DNA of 64,000 bases from Lytechinus variegatus. Its lineage: Eukaryota > Echinodermata > Echinoidea > Temnopleuroida > Toxopneustidae. The position numbers were made by a program, and so were the translations under genes. How positions within the stretch are numbered: the stretch's first letter is position 1; every line of letters begins with the position of its first letter. A model generated the notes under the pieces. The model was not told where the DNA came from, did no database searches, and worked only from the letters and a program-made list of their open reading frames with translations. The DNA lies in contig NC_054755.1 in assembly GCF_018143015.1 (NCBI RefSeq), positions 15,532,778 to 15,596,777 on the forward strand, read 5' to 3'. Below are positions 12,538 through 56,366 of the stretch, piece by piece.

Positions 12538-13132
12538 AAACCAAAACCCAAGACGAGAAGCAATCTTATTGGAAAGAGTAAAATGAGAGGAACAGTTTAA
12601 AAAAAGTTTCATCAAAATCGGTTATGAAATAAGCAAGTTATGGGAGTTTGAATTTCTTGTTGTACTTTATATGGGCATGATGGGGATCCTCAAATTGGCA
12701 AACGTGCTTCAAAATGGCTGATTTTGTGGACAACTCTCCATTTGTTTTGTACACAAATTTTTAGATTTTCCTCATTATCTTTCAAATTGCATCTTGCCTC
12801 CTTCTGAGCACAACATATGTCATGGGGACATATAATTCACACCACATATATCAAGGTCAGGAGGAGATAATGTGAAATATCTAAAATAATGGGGAAAATC
12901 TGAAAATTTGTGTACAAAACAAATGGAGAGTTGTCCACAAAATCAGCCATTTTGAAGCATATTTGCCAATTTGAGGATCCCCATAGAAAGTACAGCAAGA
13001 CTTTTTAAACGTTCATAACTTCATGAACTTGCTTATTTTATAACCGATTTTGATGAAACTTTTTTTAAATTGTTCCTCTCATTTTACTCTTTCCAATAAG
13101 ATTGCTTCAATCTCTTCTTGGGTTTCGGTTTA
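12538..13132. mobile_element. Foldback element with arms of about 270 bp
   Basis: About 595 bp in which the left and right halves are inverted copies. Left GAAGCAATCTTATTGGAAAG pairs with right CTTTCCAATAAGATTGCTTC, and the arms continue through ATTTGCCAATTTGAGGATCC-type sequence to a centre near 12830. Arm similarity is high by eye, so it is relatively young. No coding capacity. Confidence 0.8.
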
Positions 13133-30300: not shown

Positions 30301-33300
30301 TGCGGGACATGTGATTCTGCCAAGAATGTTACCCATAGCAACAAGACCACTTTACGGTAAGTAGTTGTGGAACCCATTTGTAGAGATGGTGATGAGAACA
30401 CTAGCGAAACCATCTTCTAAACTGGTTTCTTAGACTGGTTTAATGGAAACCAGTTGAAGAAAATAGGTAATAATAATAATCATATAACAATACCTGGATT
30501 TGTTACACATTTTTTTCTTGAGGAGACTAAGCGCTGCTATTATTTCCCCCATCTTATTTGTGCTGCCATATCGAAGCATTCAAGGAATTTCTTAACTGTG
30601 TACCCATATTCACCTCACCTGGGTTGAGTGCAGCACAGTGCGGGTGAATATCTTGCTGAAGGAAAACATGCCATGTCTGGGAATGGGAATCGAAGCCACA
30701 TCCCTCAGATTGAAAGATGGGAGTGTAAACATTTTTAACTAGACCATGACGCCCCCCATATGATAAGAACAATGTCAGAGAGATACGTTGTACATGTAGG
30801 AAAGGAGGATTCAGGGGAGTTTCCCTTTGCTTGGACGCCATTGTGAATGCAGAGTGAGAGAAAGAAAGAGATACAGATATACACTGTTCTCATTATGCTT
30901 TCTAAAACTAGTTTACTGGAAACCTGTTCAGGAAACCAGTTTGGTAGATCGCTCTATTCCCATTTGATGACACGAAAGTGTTTTTCAAAATTACTTCACT
31001 TAAAGCGATCTTGTTGCTATGGAAATGCTCTCAGTGGGGTGACACGTTTCGCGCAAAATTCAAAACCGTAGCGTAGGCATTCTACACCTGTCGTGTGGAG
31101 TAGCGCGCTCCAAATGTGCGGAGATTGCTTCCTGCAGAACAGTTGTGTCCTCACTTACGCTAATACCAGTTTAACATGGCAAAGCGATCTTGAAACTACA
31201 TTGCGAGGTGGTTTTATGAACTGGTTCGGAAGATCGCTTCGAAGATTGCTTCGACCGTTCTCATTACACATTTAACTAGTTCCCACTGATCTAGTTTCCA
31301 GCACTAGTTTTAGGAAGGTAGTGAGAACAGTGTCATAATACATGTACATGTATGCAGAAGTAGAGAGAGAGAGGGAGAAATGGAGAGTGAGATAGAGACA
31401 CAGAGAGAAACAAACAAAAAAGAATAATACAACTAATTATGTTCTTCTAGATGCTGACAGATGTTTCTGTATGTGGAATCATGAGGATCATTTTCATAAG
31501 CTTTTTAAATTAGAAGCAATTGTGACTGGATTATGAGATGTACATGATTGTCTTGACTACAGGCTATTGTCTTAAAAATCCACGCTGGCTAGTAGCAGGG
31601 TGTTTTTCAAAGAGAGGGACTTGAAATTTCACTTCAGTTTTCAGTTTGGCCCGATGTCGCCTGTACTTTAATGTACTTGCTAGGATGGTTTTTAATAGTT
31701 CTCATACTTGACATTCGCTTCTATCTTACACTCAGGGCTCTGGGAACAATTTTTTTTACAGGGGGTGCTGGTTTGAATTTAGAAAGCAAAAACAACAAAA
31801 AGTGTTTAATAGATAAATTCCAGTTTCGGTTACGATCTCAAAATGACTTTTTACAAAATCTAATATAATGACCACCCAAGTGTCTGTATGTATTAAAAAA
31901 AATATGTGCCAAAGGATTCTTGAAGAAATTGTGTAATTGCTGAGAAAAAAGCAAAATAAGCGCGGATTCGGTCACTTCCGTCGGGTCTTTATTCCAGCAA
32001 TAATAATACACTGTCCCACGTGTGCCTATCTGTGTTGGTGATCTTCAGTGTGAACGTTTTTCAGCGTAGATTTCAAGATTTCACAAAGTTCAGTTTATGT
32101 AACTGTACCAGATCTAGATCCTCGATGATATTCTGACAATTAAGCCTGGTTCTACAGACTTTCTCATGAAATCAGTGTTTACTGCAACTACAGGCATTTC
32201 TCTTTAATAGCTATTAAAGAAAGGTGATTTTGTTCCAGGCCAAAAATGCAGGTCCTTTTGGTAATATTTCTGTCATTTGGGCATACCTACCAGATTTCAA
32301 GGGGGTGCTGCCTATCGCCCCACCTTCTTCTGGTCAATGAATTGGATTGCCCTTCAAATTTGAGAGAGATACAAAAAAAAACACGCACAAAAAAACCCAT
32401 CAAAAATGAAGGAAACAAAAGGGGTATTGCGTCCTATGGTGCCCCTAATGATTTGGATTGGAAATAAAATGTAAATGCTACCCCATTGTGAGCTTGTTTG
32501 AAAATAACCATAACTTTGTACATGTGTTAATGTTTTTCTGATACATACATGTAGGCTACCTTGAGAACAAATTTACATGGGGCTCAGAGCTTTTTCACCC
32601 CCAAAATGGCCAAAAGAGCCATGGAAAGCAAAATAGAAGCCCTGAAAAATCCCCATTCATTGCAATGTTAAAGGTCAAGTCCACCTCAGAAAAATGTTGA
32701 TTTGAATCAATAGAGAAAGGTCAAACGAGCAAAACGCTGAAAATTTCATCAAAATCGGATGTAAAATAAGAAAGTTATGGCATTTTGAAGTTACGCTTAT
32801 TTTTCACAAATCAGTGATATGCCCAACTCAGTGACATACAAATGAGTCAGTCAATGATGTCCATCACTCACTATTTCTTTTGTTTTTTTATTGTTTGAAT
32901 TATTTCATTTTTTTACATATTTGACAACAAGGACCAACTTGACTGAACCATATAATATAAAACAATGCTCATTCCACATGCATGTTCAGGGAGGAATTAA
33001 TAATTGTTTAGCTTGACCATGAGAATTAAATGAGAATATCTCATATTTCATATAATGAAATGCAAAAGAAATAGTGAGTGAATGATGTCTTCAGTCTCCT
33101 CATTTGCATACCGACCTGGATGTGCATAAAACTGTTTTGTGAAATTAAGCAAAACTTTAAAATGTCATAACTTTATTATTTTTATATACAACCGATTTTG
33201 ATGAAATTTTCAGTGTTATGCTTGTTGGATTTTTCTCTTTTTATTCAAATCAACCCTTTGTTGGGGGTGGACTTGTCCTTTAAAAGTAATATCCAAGATG

Positions 33301-36300
33301 CAGAATAATAGGCAGTAAATTGTGAACAGTAGCCCCTAAAATATAGAATTAGTTTTTTGCCTTAGGCCAACAGTTACATGTAGGCTGAAGAGGAAGTTTG
33401 GCAGAATGTTCACTGTACAATACAGGCCTACTTAATTCCACTTCCAAGAGAAGTAAAGAACAAAAATAAAACTTCCTATTTCGACACGTGCCTCTTTCCG
33501 GTTTGACTTCTTATAAAGGCAAGAAGGAATCAGCGACAAGGAAAATTGAAACTTGAGGAAAATAAATGACCACAGTTCTTCCTGTTATGTATGTGAGCTG
33601 ATCGATGCATTTGGTTGTTTGATAAAACTTAACAAATAAGATTGAGCAGATCAGGAGATAAAATATTTAGAGAGATACACTCAAAGGTTAAGTGCAGGGA
33701 GATTGAATGAAACTGTTGTCCTCTTTTGCTTTAGATACAAGTACATGCGTCGCCAGTATTGAACTCATGGGCCTACATGTACATGTACATGTACATCCTG
33801 TTTAACATGGTGTAACTCCGTAACAAAATTATGGGAAGCCAAACATTTCAAAATTTAATAATACTATGTTTCCACTGGCGGATCCAGGGGGGGTGGCCTC
33901 GGGCTGGCTTTGAGAGCCGCAATTAAACTTTGTAATGTAAAAATGCCATTTAAACCACCCCCCCCCCCTTTGAAAGTGAAGACCTTTTGTTTTTGTCAAA
34001 ATTTTCCTCTGGATTTTAGAAAATCTTGGGTCCGCACAGGCGGCATGTTTCCTTTACATGTGGGTGCATGGTATCAAATGGACTGACAAAATGTACTTGT
34101 GTCTGTCACAGTTGGCCACAACTTCAAGCCAGAGTTAGATTCAATGAGCCATGGGGGACAATTACTTCTAGAAGTGATTTTATTTTTTATTCAAGAATAT
34201 AAATTAAGATGTACAAAAAGCTTTATCCAGAGGTGTATCTGGAAAGTTATCTATCAGGAAAATTACATGTAGTTTAAACAGGGACCTATTACTCTTGTTT
34301 AAGATGCAATGTATATAAATTATGCAGCGATTTTATTACATTTTTGTTTCGCCTGCATAGCAGAGCGAGACTATAGGCGCTGCTTTTCTGGTGGCGGCGG
34401 TGGCGTCGTCAACATTGAAATCCTAACCAAGGTTAAATTTTTGAAATGTCATCATAACTTAGAAAGTATATGAACCTAGTTAATGAAACTTCGACATAAG
34501 AGTGATTAAGTATTACTGGACACTCTGCTTGAGGTTCAGGTCACATGACCAGGGTCAAAGGTCATCTAGGGTTAATGAACTTAGACCATGTTGATGGAAT
34601 CAATTTTATCAAAATCTTAAACTAGGTTAAGTTTTTGAAATATTGTCATAACTTCAAAGTTATATTGACCTAGTTAATAAAAATTAGAAATAATTGCAAT
34701 AGTGCATCGCTGAAGATCCTGCCTGAGTTTCAGGTCACGTTATTATTATGGTCAAAGGTCACTTTGGGTCAATGAACTTAGGCCATTTTGGGGTTATTTG
34801 AGGAATTGTCATCATAACTTTTATCTAGTTCTTGAAACGTGGACATAAGAGCAACCATGTATCCCTGAATATCATATGCGAGTTTCAGGTCACATGACCA
34901 AGGTCAAAAGTCACTTAGGGTCAATGAACTTTCGCCATGTTGGGGGTATTTGAAGAATTGTCATCATAACTTTGAAATTTCATAGATCTAGTTCATGAAA
35001 CTTGGACAGAAGAGCAATCAAGTATCCTTGAACATCTTGTGTGAGTTTTAAGTCACTTTAGGTCAAAGGTCATTTAAGGTCAACAAATTGTTAATTTTTG
35101 GGGTATTTGTGGAACTATCATCATAACTTTAAAAGTTTATGGATCTAGTTCATAAAACTTGGACATAAGAGCAGCAATGTATTCCTGAATACCCTGTGCA
35201 CTTTTCAGGAACATGGCCAAGATCAAAGGTCATTTAAAGGTCAATTAACTCTGGCCGTGTTTGGAGTATGTTTTGAATTGGCATCATAGCTCAGAAAGTT
35301 TATGGATCTAGCTCATGAAACATTGACATAAGGGTAATCAAGTACATGTATGAATGATTGTTTTCAGCATGTCTTAAGTCACATGGTCAAAGGTCATTTT
35401 GGGTTGAAGGACATATGAATTTGTTATCATATGAGTGTTTTCTTCTGTCAATAATTATTTATTAGCTGTTTTCAAAGGCAGCACTGCTGCTATATCGAAT
35501 TGCATGATGCAGGCGAGACTGCCAGAGGCGTTCCACTTGTTGTTGTTAAATTATTTCAGGCTTGATTCTCTCCCACAGGGTGCAGTACAGAAATGAGGGA
35601 TATGGCTTGGGGCATGGATGGGTGAGATAGATAGATGGATAGATGAATTGATGGATGGATGGATGGATGAATGGGTGGGTGGGTGGATGGATGGATGAAT
35701 GGATTGATGGATGGATGGATGGGTGGATGGATCATGGATGAATAAAGGAATGAATAGATGGATAGATAATTCAATCAGTTGATAAATCAATCATTCAAAC
35801 TTTCAGTCTGGAAAAAAAGTATATAAAAAAGCTACAATAAAAGGATTATTTAAGGCTTTTAAATAAGAATTTCCTTGTTAAAAATCTCATGACATTTCAT
35901 GAAGAAAATAGAGATAGATTGAATAGGAATAAATGTGAATTCAATTTCTTCTTGATTTATACAGACAGCCTGCAGTAGCAACCAGCCAAAGGCTTGTCAA
36001 TTCCTGATGATAAAGGGGGCTGACCCCACCCTCAGGCACCCGAGGACGGGATGGGTTCCCCTCCACGAGGCGGCGATGAAAGGTCATGCAGGCTGCGTCA
36101 AGGAACTTATCATGAATGGCGCCCCCTGTCATCCACGCAGTGCAGATAACGACACTCCTCTTGACTTGGCGAGGAGATACGAGCACCAACATGTCGTTAT
36201 GTACCTCAGTAAGAAAACTCTCCTACATGAGAAAACTTTGTAATGTTGTGTAAACTGAATCAGAGTTCACATTACCCTGTAAATGTAAATACAATAGTTT

Positions 36301-39300
36301 GATCAATAATTTGATTTGATTCAGAGAGTATATCATTACATTATAACATATGTCATGGTAAGAGCTTAAGAATGATATCCAGAAATGAAAAGAAAAAACA
36401 AACAAACATAATTGTGCAATTGCATGAATATTATATATGCACTCCTTTCTGAGTGTGACTATACATGTGTACCAATCTCTTTGCAGTGTGAATTTTAACT
36501 CTCTTGGGAGTAAAAATGACCAAAAAGTAGCTAAAATTCACTCTTAAAGGAACAATGCCTTACATGTATCTCACAGCAAGAGGAGTTTGATTAGGGACCA
36601 GATTTGGTAAGTTTGCATAACAGAGTATTTTCAGAATTTTTTTTAATTCCTTTTTTTTTCTTTAATGAGAAAGATCCAATAAAATATTGGATAGATAATG
36701 AGCCCCACACATCCATGAAAATTGAAGAAATTAATAGAGATTTCTTCTTTTTACTATATAGTTATTCTAAGAAATTCCCAGGAAAGAACTACCTCACTTA
36801 ATTCTAATGGAAAATAAGCCCCGCACTTCAAAAAATGGCGTGAATTTATATCACAAATTCATAAAGTGCTATAAAAACAATGTAATAATACCAACAAACT
36901 AACCAAATGATAATAATCTCTCACTGCTCCCATTCTTTCTTCCCCCTTCCATCTCTGTCTGGCTCTTTTTCTCTATCTCTCTCTCTCTTTCATTCTGTCA
37001 TCCCCCCTTATCTCTTCGTTTCCCTTCATTCTCTATAGAGACTTGTAAACCTAAGAATCCTAGGCTACAAGGCAAACCCTGGTTTCACGGATCCATGGAC
37101 CGGAAAAAAGCCCTGGAATCGATTCAGAAACACGGTGCTAAAGATGGCCAGTATTTGCTCCGGAGCAGTGCTAATAAACCTGACACCATGGTGCTTTCAA
37201 TGGCTGCAAACGGCACTGTCTTTAACTTTGAGATTAACACTAAAGTAAGAAATTAACACTTAAAGTAAGAAATAACAATGAAGTAAGACATAACACTAGG
37301 GCCCTGTTGCATAAAAGAAAAACTTTGGCAAGTTTGTTTGCCAGAGTTTTTGTTTATTTGCAAGTCTGAGAGTTTTCTATTGCAAAAGTATTCTGCAACT
37401 GGCCCCAAAGTAAGTTATTAAGTATTTAAGACTGAAATAAGTAATTAACAGTTTTAGCATTAGAAGTAAGTAGTAAACACTAAAGTAATTTCAAGATTAC
37501 TGATAAATTAGGGTGCTCTTTCACAAAGAGTTGAGTGTAACTTATGCTTCAAGTCTAACGTGCACATGCTATTCAGCATAAAAAAAAAATTGGGTCGTCA
37601 AACTGATAGAACCCCTTGTGAGAATAAAATTATGTTACCTTTAAGTCGCCTTGCCCACCCATTGAAAAACTCTAACACCAACCCTGCATGGATTAGTCAA
37701 TCCTGGCCGGGGGCCCATTTCATAAAGAGTTAAAAACTATGGTAACTTGCCATTATGAAACCTACCATGGTACTAGGGTAGCAGGGCCCAGCAGCCAATC
37801 ACAATCAAAGTTTCCATGATAGTTTACAATGATGGTAAAATTGTCAAAGATTAGTTCTTCATGAAATTGGGTTCAGATGTTTCAAGTTGTATATTTCACC
37901 TTGATCAATTACTCTACTTTCTTTCTTTGCCATTTCAGATGGAGAGCTACTACATCGACGACGGCCCTTACTTCGACACCCTAGAACAACTCATCGATCA
38001 CTACTCGCGCTACGATGATGGTCTTCCAACACAACTCCTCTTCCCCATTCCCCCTCCCCCGGGGCGTATCGACAATGGTCCCCCTACCAGGGAAAAGCCT
38101 AGTCCTGCTCCTAGACCAGTTGATCTTACCTCTCACAAAGGAGTTCCAGTCAGGAGGGATAGTCCTGAACCTCCTGTTAGTCCTCTGGACAGGGAGGGGT
38201 CAATACCCATGTCTCCCCCTCCCGTAAGTACAGGAAATTTTTCTTTCGGGGGGGGGGGCTTTATTTTTTTTAACATTTCTATTTTGTTATTTGATCTTTT
38301 GGGCCTGATGTTACCATCATAACATGATGAAAAGTCACATATTTACCAAATTATACAGCATGTTTAGAATAAGTAGTTGGAAGTTCTTACATGAAACTAA
38401 TTCTGTCCATGTTAGGAGCTCTGGGAAATGTATTAGCAGGAAGTATATGTACGTTCCACAGCGGAGTTGGATAAGTCGATAGCAATATCTCCCCTCCTCT
38501 ATGTGGGAGGAAGTTTATTTACATTTTTTTTTTTTTTTACTTTGGATAGGGGTGGGTCAATACCCTTGTCATCCCTGTGAGTGAGTTTATTAGATTTGAT
38601 TTGATTAATGCTTTTGTTTGGGATGGCTTTATTTAAATTTTGATTTCTTTTATTACTTGGGCTATTAGGTCTGGATGCCCATGTCATCTCTCATGCTCGT
38701 TTATGAATTTTAAATTCATGTTCATTTTATTCATGAAGACAGTGTTATGCATGTCTTGTATTATAATCGTCATTGTTTAGATCAAATTATTATCATTTGT
38801 AGGAGTTGCCAACAGGGAGAATGCCTAAGACAAACACCTTCTCCAAGTTGTTTGGTGGAATCCGAGCTTCAGAGAAGATCAAGAAGAAAGAGATGGATCG
38901 ACAGAGAAAGGAACTCCAGAAAGCCATTAATGAAGCGCCTGGTGGAGGCTCTGACGAGGTTCAGTGTATAGATGCCAGTCACATTGAAAGAGGTTAGCTC
39001 TCACCGTTTGTGGTAATTCAGAATTTAAATTTGATAAGCAATTGTCAAACTGGCAACGCGAATATTATTCTGTATTGCTGCATTTTTTTTTGAGTTAGAT
39101 GCTCCTCATAATGAAAGAGGTAAGCTTAGCTTTTGCACCTGGGGACAAGGATTTATATGAATCTGTATTTATAAGCTTTTTTGTCAAATTGGCAACGTGG
39201 ATGGACAGACAGATAAAATAACTCAAGAAGACAATCCATGAGGCTACTAGAGGGAGCTCTGATGAGGTTCTTTGTATAGATGCCAGTCTCATTGAAAGGT

Positions 39301-42300
39301 ATAAGCTCTGTGAAAACTGGGGGTTTAAAAACTCTTATTAATTAGCTTTAATTCATGAAATTGTCAACAAATTAATATTTTCAGGTTTCAAATTCTTTGT
39401 CCCTTACAGGTAACATAACTGGCCAGGGAGACTTTGGAATGTTCTTGATGGGATCCTGAATGGCAGCTGATGGAAGAAAATAACTTTGAAGTACTTTTAC
39501 TAGGTTTCAATTCCTTTGTCCCAAGCAGGTAGCAGGATTGACCAGGGAGAGTTTGGGTTTGTTCTTGATTGCAACCTGAAGGGACTCTTATCAGAGAATA
39601 TTGTTCTGAAGAATTTTTATAGTCAGATTTCAATTTCTTTGTACCATGCAAGGAACAAGATTTTTCCAGGGAATACTTGTCTTTGGGGCAGAGTTAAACA
39701 GGGTACCTGATGGATGGATAAACATAGAAGTGAAGACCTTTGTCCTATACATTTAGCGCAATCAGCCTTGAAGAATTGGGGTTTGTTTTAGGGCAGTCCA
39801 AAGGGCAGCTCATAGAGGAAAATAGTTCTGAAGATTTTTTTTATTGAGCAAGTAGCACGACTGGCCACAGAGATTTGGTTTGATCTTGGTAAAAAAAACC
39901 AAACAGCTCAAAGAGGAAAATAGTCCTGATTTTTTTATGTTGATCAGGTTTCAATTTCTTTGTTCCAGGCTGGTAGCAAGATTGACTAGGGAGAGTTTGG
40001 GCTTGTTCTTGATTGCAAACAGAAGGATTGCTGATGGGAGGAATTTAATCCCCCATTGAAGAGATAGACAATTTTTGATTGAGCTACTCATGCTACTACC
40101 ACAATCTCTTAATGTAGCCTCACTTCTTAAGATCATTGTAGAAATTCCTGAAGCAATATTGGCCATGGAGAGTTTGAGCTTGATGTTGATCTGATGGGCA
40201 GCACATTGAGGAAATGTTTCTGGTCTTTTCCATTGATCAGGTTTCAAATTCTTTGTTCCAAGCAGGTTGCAAGATTGGCCAGGGAAAGTTTGAGCTTTTT
40301 CTTGATGGCATTCTTAAAGGCAACCAATGGGGAAAGTAGTGTTGACAATTTTGTATTGAATAGATTCAAACTTCTTTGTTCCATCCAGGTAACAAGATCG
40401 GCCACAGAGACTTTTGGTTTGTTCTTGTAGGCAAACCGAGTGAAATCTGATCAGTGAAAATAGTTCTGAAAAATACTTTTGATTGATCAGGTTTTCATTT
40501 TCTTTATTCCATGCAGGCAACGAGATCGGCCAGGGAGAGTTTGGCTCTGTCTTGGAAGGCAAGCTGAAGGAGGGTAACCGGTGGGTGAAGGTGGCTCTGA
40601 AGACCCTACATGCAGATCATCTTCAGACCGGTCAGAAGGAGTTCTTGAGAGAAGCTAAGGTCATGTGTGGTCTAGACCATCCCTGTATTGTCAAGCTCAT
40701 GGGAGTGTGTCTTGGTCCACCTATGATGTTGGTAAGATCTAATGATGTTCATTATTATTCATAATAGGTCAAAATACCAGTATCAGATTTTGAATACCTA
40801 ATTATAGATATATGTCAATTCTTAGTCTGCATTCATTTGAAAGAAATGGGAATAAAGAGTAGGTGATGATGAAGAAAAAAGGAGAAGGAAAGAGAGAAGA
40901 AGGAGGAGGAGGAAGAGGAGAATAATTAGAATAAGAAGGACGAAGGAAGAGAAAGAGAATTAGAATAAGAAGAAGGGCAAAGGAGTAGAAGGAGGAGTTC
41001 TTGAGAGGAGTCAAGGTCATGCATGGTCTTGACCATCCTTGTATCGTCAAGCTCATGGGAGTCTATCTTGGTCCCCCTATGATAGATCACATGAACCCTG
41101 CAAAATCAAGATTGTCAATGAATAGCAGTTATGAAAGAAACAGTCTGATTGGTTCCTGGTGTTTTGAACCAAGTGTGCATGACACAATAATCTTGATTGC
41201 CCATTGGTACATGTATTTTGGAGTCAATTGCAAACCATTATGTATTTGTTTTTCAAGGTTCAATTGTAGAATTTTGCCAGTCTTGTAGTCTGTATTCATT
41301 CCATAGGAGTGCAGAAAAGAATAGGAGGAAGGAATAGTTAGAAGAGGAAGAGGAGGAGAAAGAGGATGAGAAGGAGGAGAAAGAGGATGAGGAGTATGTT
41401 GATTCTTTCATTTTAGTTACATATAGAAACATTTCATGAACCATCCAAAAAATTTCAGAGACCACGGCCCCGTCATACAAAGAGTTGTGACTAATCCAAT
41501 CAATAGCAACTATGGAAAGCCAGCAAAGTCAACATATAAAATGCATGTTCTTTTAAAAAATGTAGATATGAATGTATATCCATAAATTCATTGATTTCTT
41601 GCCAACTTGGCGTGTTCTTTGTTTACAAAGGACATTTTGCCATAGAGTTACGATATTGGATCAGACGTAACTCTTCGTAAGACGGGGCCCTGATTTCCTG
41701 TCTGCTAACCACATCCAAACCTTATAGGTTGTTAAACAAAATTTAAAATGAAAATTACTTCAAAGGCCTATCTTGAAATGCATGTTCTATCCTGCATTTA
41801 TGAAACTTCTAATAATCTAGTTCTGGCCCCCATAATACAAAGAATATACATTATAGCTTCATTGCAGGGCTATGATTATAACAGTGATCATAATATGAAG
41901 TCATTGGTACAATTTGTACGTGTGCAAGAATATAGATGGAGGTAAATCAAGCATATAAGTTTGTTAATAGAAAAGGTTCTTTTGTTGCTTTTGCAGAAAG
42001 CTACATGCAAAGGCATGCTTGTATGCTTTCTTAATTCTAGTTCCGATCAAGATGTCTGTATGGTAAACTTTTATTTGTTTGTTTCTTTTGTTGGCAGGTC
42101 CAGGAACTGGTCTCTCTTGGGGCTATGTTGGACTTCCTCCAGAATGATTCCATCACCGCCTCGGACCTGAAGCTCTGGGCCACCCAGATAGCCTCGGGGA
42201 TGATGTACCTGGAAGGAAAGAAGTTTGTTCATAGAGACCTTGCTGCACGGAACATACTGTTGGAAAATAAAGGACAGGTTAGTATGGTGTCTTCTAAGAG

Positions 42301-53689: not shown

Positions 53690-54735
53690 AAATAGCAGCA
53701 GTGCTGACTTTGAAAACTACTATAACTCGCACAAGATGTTCAGTGATACTTGGTTAGTCTTATTTCCATGTTTTATGAACTAGACCAATACACTTACAGA
53801 AATAGGATGGTAATTCAACAAATATCCCCAATGTGGCAAATGTTCATTGACCTCACATGACCTTTGACCTTGATCATGTGTCCTGAAACTTGCACAGGAT
53901 ATACAGTGATACTTGATTACTCTTTATGTCCAAGTTTCAAAAGTCAGATCAATAAACTTGCAAAGTTATGATGGTAATTCAACAGATACCCCCATTATGG
54001 CCAAAGTTCATTGACCTATGACCTTGGTCATGTGACCTAAAATGCGCACAGAATGTTCAGTGATACTTGATTACTCTTATGTCCAAGTTTTATGAACTAG
54101 ACCAACATACTTTCAAAGTTATGATGGTAATTCAACAAATACCCCCAATTCGGCCAAAGTTCATTGACCCTAAATGACCTTTGACCTTGATCATGTGACC
54201 TGAAACTTGCACAGGATGTTCAGTGATACTTGATTACTATTATGTCCAAGTTTCATGAATCAGATCCAAAAACTTTTAAAGTTATGATGGTAATTCAACC
54301 CCCAAGTTGGCCAAAGTTCATTGACCCTAAATGACCGTTGACTTAGTCATGTGATGTGAAACTCACGCAAGATGTTTGGTGATACTTGATTATCCTTATA
54401 TCCAAGTTTAATGAACTAGGTCCATATATTTTCTAAGTTATGATGACATTTCAAAAACTTAAGGTTAAGATTTTGATGTTGATTCCCCCAATATGGTCTA
54501 AGTTCATTGACCCTAAATGACCTTTGATCTTGGTCATGTGACATGAAACTCTACTAGGATGTTCAGTAATACTTGATTAACCTTGTGGCCAAGTTTCATG
54601 AACTAGGTCCATACACTTTCTAAGTTATGATGTCATTTCAAAAACTTAACCTTAGGTTAAGATTTGATGTTGACGTCGCTGCCACCGTCCGAAAAGCGGC
54701 GCCTATAGTCTCAAGTGCTCTGTTATGCAGGTGAG
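53690..54735. mobile_element. Tandem-repeat element, period about 160 bp, copy 2 (inverted)
   Basis: Six units marked by GATGGTAATTCAAC (53807, 53970, 54120, 54284) or GATGACATTTCAAAA/GATGTCATTTCAAAA (54441, 54628), each with TGACCTTTGACCTTG and CAAGTTTCATGAAC. It ends GGCGCCTATAGTCTCAAGTG and TGTTATGCAGGTGAGAC, the complement of the start of copy 1. Confidence 0.75.
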
Positions 54736-56366
54736 ACAAAAATCAAGCATAGAATCATGAAAAGTAGGATGATATGCAGGGACTCAGTTTCATAATTTTG
54801 AAGGGAGCAATAAAAAGATCTCCTAAAAGTTTGAAGGGGAGTGGTAGGGGATCATTGACTGACACTTGTTTAACATTCAGGTCAAGTGATGTCCGTATAC
54901 AGATTATACATGGAAATAAAATGTACAAACAAAATGTGTATGATGCTGCCTGATTTCTAGTTTTTCAACATTTCTGCATTTATCGTTTCATGTCACAAAA
55001 AATTATATTTCGCTGAGACGAGTGATAAATTGCTCTACCTGAAATGGATTAAGACAAGAAGTATCGAATGATCGTTCTAACTCCCTTTAACCCTTTGGAC
55101 GCTAATGGTGCAATTAAGCACATTCTTACAATTAAATTCAACAATCGTAATAATTACTTTTCTCCCCTAACTTCACATTAGAGAAGCTCATAATAAAACG
55201 TTCTTGGACAACATCTTTATAATAATCAGTGTCAATGGTTCAAAATGGAAATCTTGATTCCAAGAAAATAACATGGAAACAATAGTCATTATTGTCCCCA
55301 AAATTAATTCAGCGTGCAAAGAGTTAAAACTGAGTCCCTGGATACGCAGCCACTAAAAAATTGTATTAAGGGTTTTTATTTAGAAAATATTTTTACAAAT
55401 AATTACAATTATACGGGTAACATAAAAAGAAGAATATTTCATATATAATCAGCCAAGGAAAAATAATGCATTGGTAAAAACACATTTACAAGAATGAAAT
55501 GGGAAATTAGTATGATATAAATTCACAATACGGAACCTTCACCAAATCTTCAAACAGGCTCTGGCAAATATACAGCAATGAACTCAAATAATTTCTCTGC
55601 GAAAATAACGTTCCAACATGTAAAATCTTTTGTCAACATTCCAACCCCTGGGAATGTTGATAAAAAGTTATTAATAAGTGTGATAGAAAAATACCTGTGT
55701 TCTTAAAGAATAGAAATCAAGTGAATATTCAAGAAATCAAACAGTAACGTATCATACCCTTAAAAAGATGGCGCACATTTTAAGTAAAAAATAATATGAA
55801 TACACATCTGTTTGTGAAATAGAACAAAATATGTTTTTTAAAAATATGAAATTATCTCCTTTGACTCTTTATAAAAAAAAAGATGCACCCTTAAACACAT
55901 TTAACAAATTCTAATCCCCAAGAAATGATATAGAAAAAGGCAAAAAAAAAGAATAGAAATTACAAATAATTTCTCTGAGAAACAAAAAAGTATCAGTGAA
56001 GCACCATCAAATAGCATGTATAGTTATGTTTTTAGTCACTTTGGCTAGTACTACGAGCAGATATGTTTCACAAAGATGTGTGACTAAAATTGTGATTAAC
56101 TTCTCAGTTGCGAGCGATATATAACACATCATCACATTGGTCAGATTGCTAACAAGCTCAAAGGATGTGCACTAATGGTTAGTTATCAATGAGGTTAAGT
56201 GTTAGAGTGCACACACTGATATTTACACTGTACTTTGTAAGAATGACTATATTGAACTCAGCTTTTTGTGACACAGCCCCTAGTGATAGTCTGCAGGCAC
56301 AGACCCTATGTTTTTGCAATTCGCATAGTGCATCATACAGAGTCTGAATAAGTGAGACTAGATTCA
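54736..56366. other. Intergenic AT-rich stretch
   Basis: No gene. 56288-56307 (AGTCTGCAGGCACAGACCCT) is an isolated arm of the palindrome element at 11286. Confidence 0.45.

Follow-up and report, generated by a model that had tools for sequence, protein, structure and literature searches.

The window, i.e., the whole stretch of 64,000 nucleotides of Lytechinus variegatus DNA that was analysed, lies on contig C16 of a genome of 869.6 Mb in 33 contigs. It contains a gene with 11 coding exons, running from 14747 to 44540. In a protein search, a spliced model of the last eight exons was identical at 498 of 498 residues to an 835-aa protein annotated as 'tyrosine-protein kinase HTK16-like [Lytechinus variegatus]' (P0001), which identifies the host gene as the urchin HTK16/Shark kinase. 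SH2, ankyrin, SH2 and tyrosine kinase domains are combined in a single protein, as is typical of HTK16/Shark kinases; the ankyrin part of P0001 is taken from a precomputed Pfam list. With its 100% identity to the annotated protein over the 498 aa, the host protein is an ordinary member of these kinases and shows no departure from them. Intron 6, at 38993-40516, measures 1524 bases, and the numbering of this intron and of exon 7 in the preliminary description of the locus agrees with the 11 coding exons. A single intron is present here in the gene model, and the annotated protein joins at the last acceptor of intron 6.

Elsewhere in the window, two arrays of ~163-bp units at 34340-35344 and 53747-54743 are inverted relative to each other and 76% alike over ~1 kb. 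Self-complementary stretches of ~600 bases are found at 12538-13131 (81%), 1125-1709 (67%) and 32668-33283 (70%), the latter two being 77% alike, and all three are perhaps hairpin-like mobile elements. An intronless open frame of 470 aa at 2864-4276 matches the catalytic domain of glutamine synthetase.

Intron 6 contains, at 39369-40487, nine decayed copies of its own 3' end together with the start of exon 7, followed by the real exon as a tenth unit (Table 1). In each decoy unit, ~30-45 bases from the very end of intron 6 are followed by approximately 85 bases from the start of exon 7, some units being truncated. The units repeat, side by side and in direct orientation, a segment with both an intron end and an exon start, i.e., a tandem genomic duplication across a splice boundary. 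Direct-repeat families span 39381-40570, with neighbouring members mostly 116-128 bp apart, and the diagonals of the array are visible in a self-BLAST of the window. When the units were compared with the real unit, the scores of U1, U2, U3, U6, U7, U8 and U9 were reached by none of 500 dinucleotide shuffles and those of U4 and U5 by one of 500 each. Tandem Repeats Finder gave no row at the array, because the units are too diverged. The borders of the U units, as well as those of the V copies described below, were set by eye.

The preliminary description had read this region as a serial tandem duplication across a splice acceptor followed by decay, with six to nine units of ~120 bp beginning at 39381. 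Repeat families, self-BLAST, alignment and shuffles bear out both the array and its proposed origin, and the self-comparison that had been suggested as a check gives the expected diagonals. The unit alignment likewise agrees that the real exon is the last unit and the sole one running on into exon 7. The number of decoys settles at nine, at the upper end of what had been proposed, but their lengths vary from 95 to 153 bp and the array, real as it is, starts ~12 bp earlier, at 39369.

Table 1. Real splice junctions of the HTK16/Shark gene and their local copies, in window coordinates.
Feature	Position	Strand	Evidence
Short copy (36 nt, 83%) of exon 5 end (38183-38217) in intron 5	38540..38575	+	local copy search
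Exon 6, HTK16/Shark gene (real)	38803..38992	+	spliced model identical to P0001 over 498 aa
V0, end of exon 6 with donor and intron start; source of V1 and V2	38893..39070	+	alignment with V1 and V2
V1, truncated donor-side copy (same parts as V0); donor at 39120	39096..39194	+	repeat families, alignment, shuffles, donor score
V2, donor-side copy (same parts as V0)	39195..39368	+	repeat families, self-BLAST, alignment, shuffles
U1 decoy, acceptor CAG 39407-39409	39369..39492	+	repeat families, unit alignment, shuffles, acceptor score
U2 decoy, acceptor CAG 39526-39528	39493..39619	+	repeat families, unit alignment, shuffles, acceptor score
U3 decoy, AG displaced by one base	39620..39737	+	repeat families, unit alignment, shuffles, acceptor score
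U4 decoy, heavily decayed, weak AG 39755-39756	39738..39848	+	unit alignment, shuffles (1/500), acceptor score
U5 decoy, without pyrimidine tract	39849..39943	+	repeat families, unit alignment, shuffles (1/500)
U6 decoy, junction CTG, AG four bases upstream	39944..40083	+	repeat families, unit alignment, shuffles, acceptor score
U7 decoy, ~62 bases of other sequence at start, acceptor lost	40084..40236	+	unit alignment, shuffles, genome search
U8 decoy, acceptor CAG 40263-40265	40237..40359	+	repeat families, unit alignment, shuffles, acceptor score
U9 decoy, acceptor CAG 40386-40388	40360..40487	+	repeat families, unit alignment, shuffles, acceptor score
Real unit: exon 7 (40517-40731, with glycine loop IGQGEFGSV) and the intron 6 stretch before it (40488-40516)	40488..40731	+	spliced gene model, P0001 match
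Copy of exon 7 3' half in intron 7, 87% identical to 40634-40727	40990..41083	+	repeat families, self-BLAST, alignment

The donor side of intron 6 has been copied as well. The exon part of V2, at 39200-39309, is 76% identical to 38892-39001, which covers approximately the last 100 bases of exon 6 and the donor. For the intron parts, the comparisons V0-V1 and V1-V2 each beat 500 of 500 shuffles; the intron parts of V0 and V2 alone are not significantly alike (score reached by 74 of 500 shuffles), and 39060-39095 showed nothing above chance when compared with the U array (85 of 500). The real exon 6 donor at 38993 is weak (GAG|GTTAGC, score 5.8) and the donor of the V1 copy at 39120 is near consensus (GAG|GTAAGC, 10.4). 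With the borders drawn by eye, intron 6, 1524 bases long, breaks down into ~1330 bases of copied junction, ~62 of insert and ~130 of original ends, and the original intron would have measured ~130 bp. The neighbouring introns hold copies of exon ends too: the copy of exon 7 in intron 7 has no detectable donor at its end, and intron 5 has, besides the short copy of the exon 5 end, a possible second one near 38660-38690, a candidate only. The preliminary description had placed the event at the exon 7 acceptor, where it does lie; it is not an isolated event there, and the donor ends of exons 5, 6 and 7 and, as shown below, junctions of other genes have been copied too.

The copies in intron 6 are confined to this locus. 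DNA searches of the urchin's own genome with 39010-39943, 39944-40487 and 40488-40740 returned this locus only, with the sole exception of a 73-nt match (78%) on contig C2 to 40074-40145 of the window, at the border of U6 and U7, a piece that, to judge from this match, may be an inserted dispersed repeat. The genome search scores the best candidates only and skips very common words; at this sensitivity, the searches argue against units scattered through the genome as a dispersed repeat, the finding that the preliminary description had named as fatal to its reading.

Local duplication is common in this genome. A survey of 260 kb, made up of positions 1-60000 of the window and 20 spaced loci of 10 kb each, two of which lie next to the window, found 50 local direct-repeat clusters covering 12% of the sequence. 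Of 600 random 120-bp windows in the 20 loci, 127 had a copy within 4 kb, 92 a copy of at least 50 nt and 19 five copies or more. The corresponding counts for the 20 internal junctions of the HTK16/Shark gene are four, three and one, which puts the gene at the background rate; enrichment of copies at junctions, which was considered, is rejected on the comparison of these rates. A uniform rate does not, however, account for the fact that the affected junctions sit in three exons in a row.

The same pattern is seen in other exons. Junction-spanning copies were found in four of 28 other sampled exons, namely three of 15 in loci L004-L023 and one of 13 kinase exons; any copy within 900 bp was found for 62 of 400 random windows. 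The 15 exons were chosen by codon score and by eye (one in L013, four in L018, two in L022, two in L015, three in L011 and three in L019), and open frames taken as repeats or non-coding, several of which have local copies (L009, L014, L020, L023), were not counted as exons. Pfam was run on 13 of the 15 chosen frames and six passed the cut-off. The 13 kinase exons, in 10 loci, were the authors' choice from a list of 151 matches. One example is L011:4440-5090 (minus strand), where two decayed units, consisting of an acceptor and the first ~40 exon bases and spaced 161 and 171 bp, precede an exon that is of the PRDM2-type PR-domain by Pfam. A DUF3535 exon (Pfam) in L015:1321-1527 (minus strand) has its end and donor repeated 100 bp downstream, with GTAAGT intact. 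In L019:6493-6880, the end of a coiled-coil-like exon is repeated 294 bp downstream, where AT stands in place of the donor GT; this copy was noticed via the survey of local repeat clusters, and the exon frame failed the Pfam cut-off. Lastly, the end and donor of a kinase exon in L032:1140-1391 (G000:C7) occur in three identical 63-bp units, the first of which is the real one, and in a fourth unit alike at 46 of 63 bases. GTAAGT is present in each of the first three, and judged from its sequence this looks like a very young junction array. The L035 kinase exon has an intron copy only, ending short of the acceptor, and no copies were found at the remaining 11 of the 13 kinase exons.

Several of the decoys in intron 6 still resemble functional acceptors. 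U1, U2, U8 and U9 retain a CAG precisely at the junction, the AG is shifted in U3 and U6, it is weak in U4, and it has been lost from the junction in U5 and U7. Acceptor scores are 9.9 for U1, 9.4 for U2, 5.0 for U3, 6.2 for U4, 7.4 for U8 and 10.8 for U9, and the AG four bases upstream of the junction gives U6 a score of 11.6, compared to 11.5 for the real exon 7 acceptor. The preliminary description had credited every unit with a decoy 3' splice site; this applies to five of the nine, which score near an ordinary acceptor, but not to U5 and U7, which have none at the junction, and hardly to U3 and U4, which score low. In intron 6 as a whole, 14 of 117 AGs score at least 5, and the real exon 6 acceptor itself scores 4.8. 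All values come from a simple frequency score with tables typed from general knowledge, the exon 1 donor being left out. Read in the frame of exon 6, the decoy junctions lead to a stop after 16 (U1), 60 (U2), 34 (U3), 5 (U6), 24 (U8) and 20 (U9) residues, so that all six translated decoys stop early, within intron 6. Within the U array, donor-like sites of at least 4.5 are limited to the AG|GT junctions, at 39410, 39529 and 40389, in U1, U2 and U9; scoring of intron 6 revealed no such site after the exon part of any unit.

All units have diverged. They are pairwise alike at 44-78% of aligned bases, the closest pair being U2 and U6 (91 of 116), and their tree is star-like and weakly supported. 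From the majority differences, the decoys had first been read as a clade of single-copy origin to which the real exon was the outgroup. This reading was rejected on account of the tree, and it is also countered by the five private changes of the real unit in 104 columns, which fall within the range of the six fuller decoys (6, 6, 5, 4, 3 and 1). A remaining hint for such a clade is the T at 40547 in eight of nine decoys, giving Phe or Leu except in the gapped codon of U1, at a position that encodes Ser in the real exon and in 91 of 109 homologues. Six of 10 changes are synonymous (p 0.016), a result that is given no weight, the neutral synonymous share of 0.24 being assumed. Per-column conservation among the six fuller decoys is 78% in the acceptor stretch, 74% in the next 41 exon bases and 61% in the remainder. 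Since the first two values are not different (p 0.26), nothing indicates that acceptors were kept for their own sake, and special keeping of the acceptors is rejected. Acceptor and first 41 exon bases together are kept better than what follows in the unit (p 0.003), the part with the least certain alignment; this may be due to alignment error or to weak constraint.

Very probably, intron 6 grew via repeated local head-to-tail duplication across its own ends, which left two copies of the donor junction and nine of the acceptor junction. Local tandem duplication would strike splice junctions just as it strikes other sequence. A duplicated unit across an acceptor would create a new partial exon inside the intron if the last acceptor stays in use, and the protein would be unchanged. 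Donors would behave as the mirror image, with splicing keeping the outermost real junction. The copies would then drift and decay, presumably neutrally, and the intron would remain longer. That splicing settles on the last acceptor is most likely a matter of exon definition, the simplest explanation: 215 nt separate this acceptor from the real donor, and use of the nearest decoy would give an exon of 343 nt with a stop. Three points tell against this explanation, i.e., the decoys that score near the real acceptor, the three consecutive exons that are affected and the conservation difference with p 0.003; the decoys may be under weak constraint.

Such constraint would be expected if the decoys were a kept regulatory device that tunes kinase output, either through early-stop transcripts that are destroyed or through a kinase-less SH2-ankyrin protein. 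The five decoys scoring 7.4-11.6, the early stops in all six translated decoys and the better keeping of acceptor and first exon bases are in line with this. On the other hand, the acceptors are no better kept than the neighbouring exon code, those of U5 and U7 have been lost, decayed sequence would hold stops anyway and junction copies occur at the background rate; the source name of the homologue, which carries no isoform label, argues weakly in the same direction. Altogether, a regulatory device is unlikely. Considerably less likely still is that the AG|GT junctions of U1, U2 and U9 serve as recursive splice points (zero-length exons) for stepwise removal of the intron. Their sequence, CAG|GTAACA or CAG|GTAGCA behind a pyrimidine tract, and their donor scores (7.3 for U1, 4.7 for U2 and 7.3 for U9) would suit such a role, but the intron is merely 1.5 kb, and the T, which is present in seven of nine decoys, may be an older synonymous Gly state (GGT vs. 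GGC).

Mutually exclusive splicing arrays of the Dscam type consist of related copies of one exon head to tail. The urchin units are likewise related copies in tandem, upstream of an exon, and the distance from U8 to U9 (123 nt) is a multiple of three. Unlike the members of such arrays, they are partial: the 3' part of exon 7 is present in no unit, the AG|GT junctions provide the only donor-like sites, no donor follows the exon part and the six translated units carry stops. No copy thus has its own donor and an open frame, as every copy of a mutually exclusive or cassette array would, and it is highly improbable that the units are, or were, alternative exons. Equally improbable is an assembly artefact or a dispersed repeat that resembles the exon by chance. 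Local repeats are indeed common in this genome, but the decoys differ mutually by ~22% or more over the full unit, unlike assembly stutter, and the searches place the units at this locus only.

The preferred explanation, growth by local duplication across the intron's own junctions, has known counterparts. A review counts tandem genomic duplication among the well supported ways in which introns are gained (PMC3443670). In the potato RNA-dependent RNA polymerase gene, as summarized in the report on it, a tandem duplication over an intron-exon boundary made a new intron (PMC4974935). In both potato and urchin, a short duplication across an intron end and the start of the next exon copies polypyrimidine tract, acceptor and exon code. 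Compared to the main lines of the potato case, which concerns one event and a new intron, ~nine serial copies lengthen an existing intron in the urchin, and donor-side junctions of neighbouring exons have been copied too (PMC4974935). In the Drosophila cases of intron gain by tandem duplication, as presented in brief (PMC2891723, PMC2809761), local duplication yields extra AG and GT sites, as do the AG|GT junctions of the urchin. Unlike those cases, the urchin array makes no new intron: the coding sequence has no new interruption, and no intron has appeared at a new position as in the AGGT model of intron gain by tandem duplication. Duplication over a splice boundary is therefore already known; the urchin case is set apart by its serial nature, the lengthening of an old intron and the involvement of donors and acceptors of neighbouring exons. 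Among the titles and abstract openings listed from the open-licence literature, none dealt with serial acceptor copies inside an intron.

It can tentatively be proposed, as a generalization that is for now rather doubtful, that introns of this urchin grow largely by head-to-tail duplication that includes their own splice junctions. This would leave ladders of decoy donors and acceptors for splicing to reject, and the conserved exons would act as a reference that keeps the growth readable once plain intron copies have faded. At the HTK16/Shark locus, the possible growth of one intron from ~130 bp to 1.5 kb can still be read from the sequence, and a true acceptor is naturally pitted against a series of several nearly equal decoys upstream of it. 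With the young L032 array beside the old HTK16/Shark array, duplication, tolerance and decay, together with the rule that the outermost junction is used, become directly testable.
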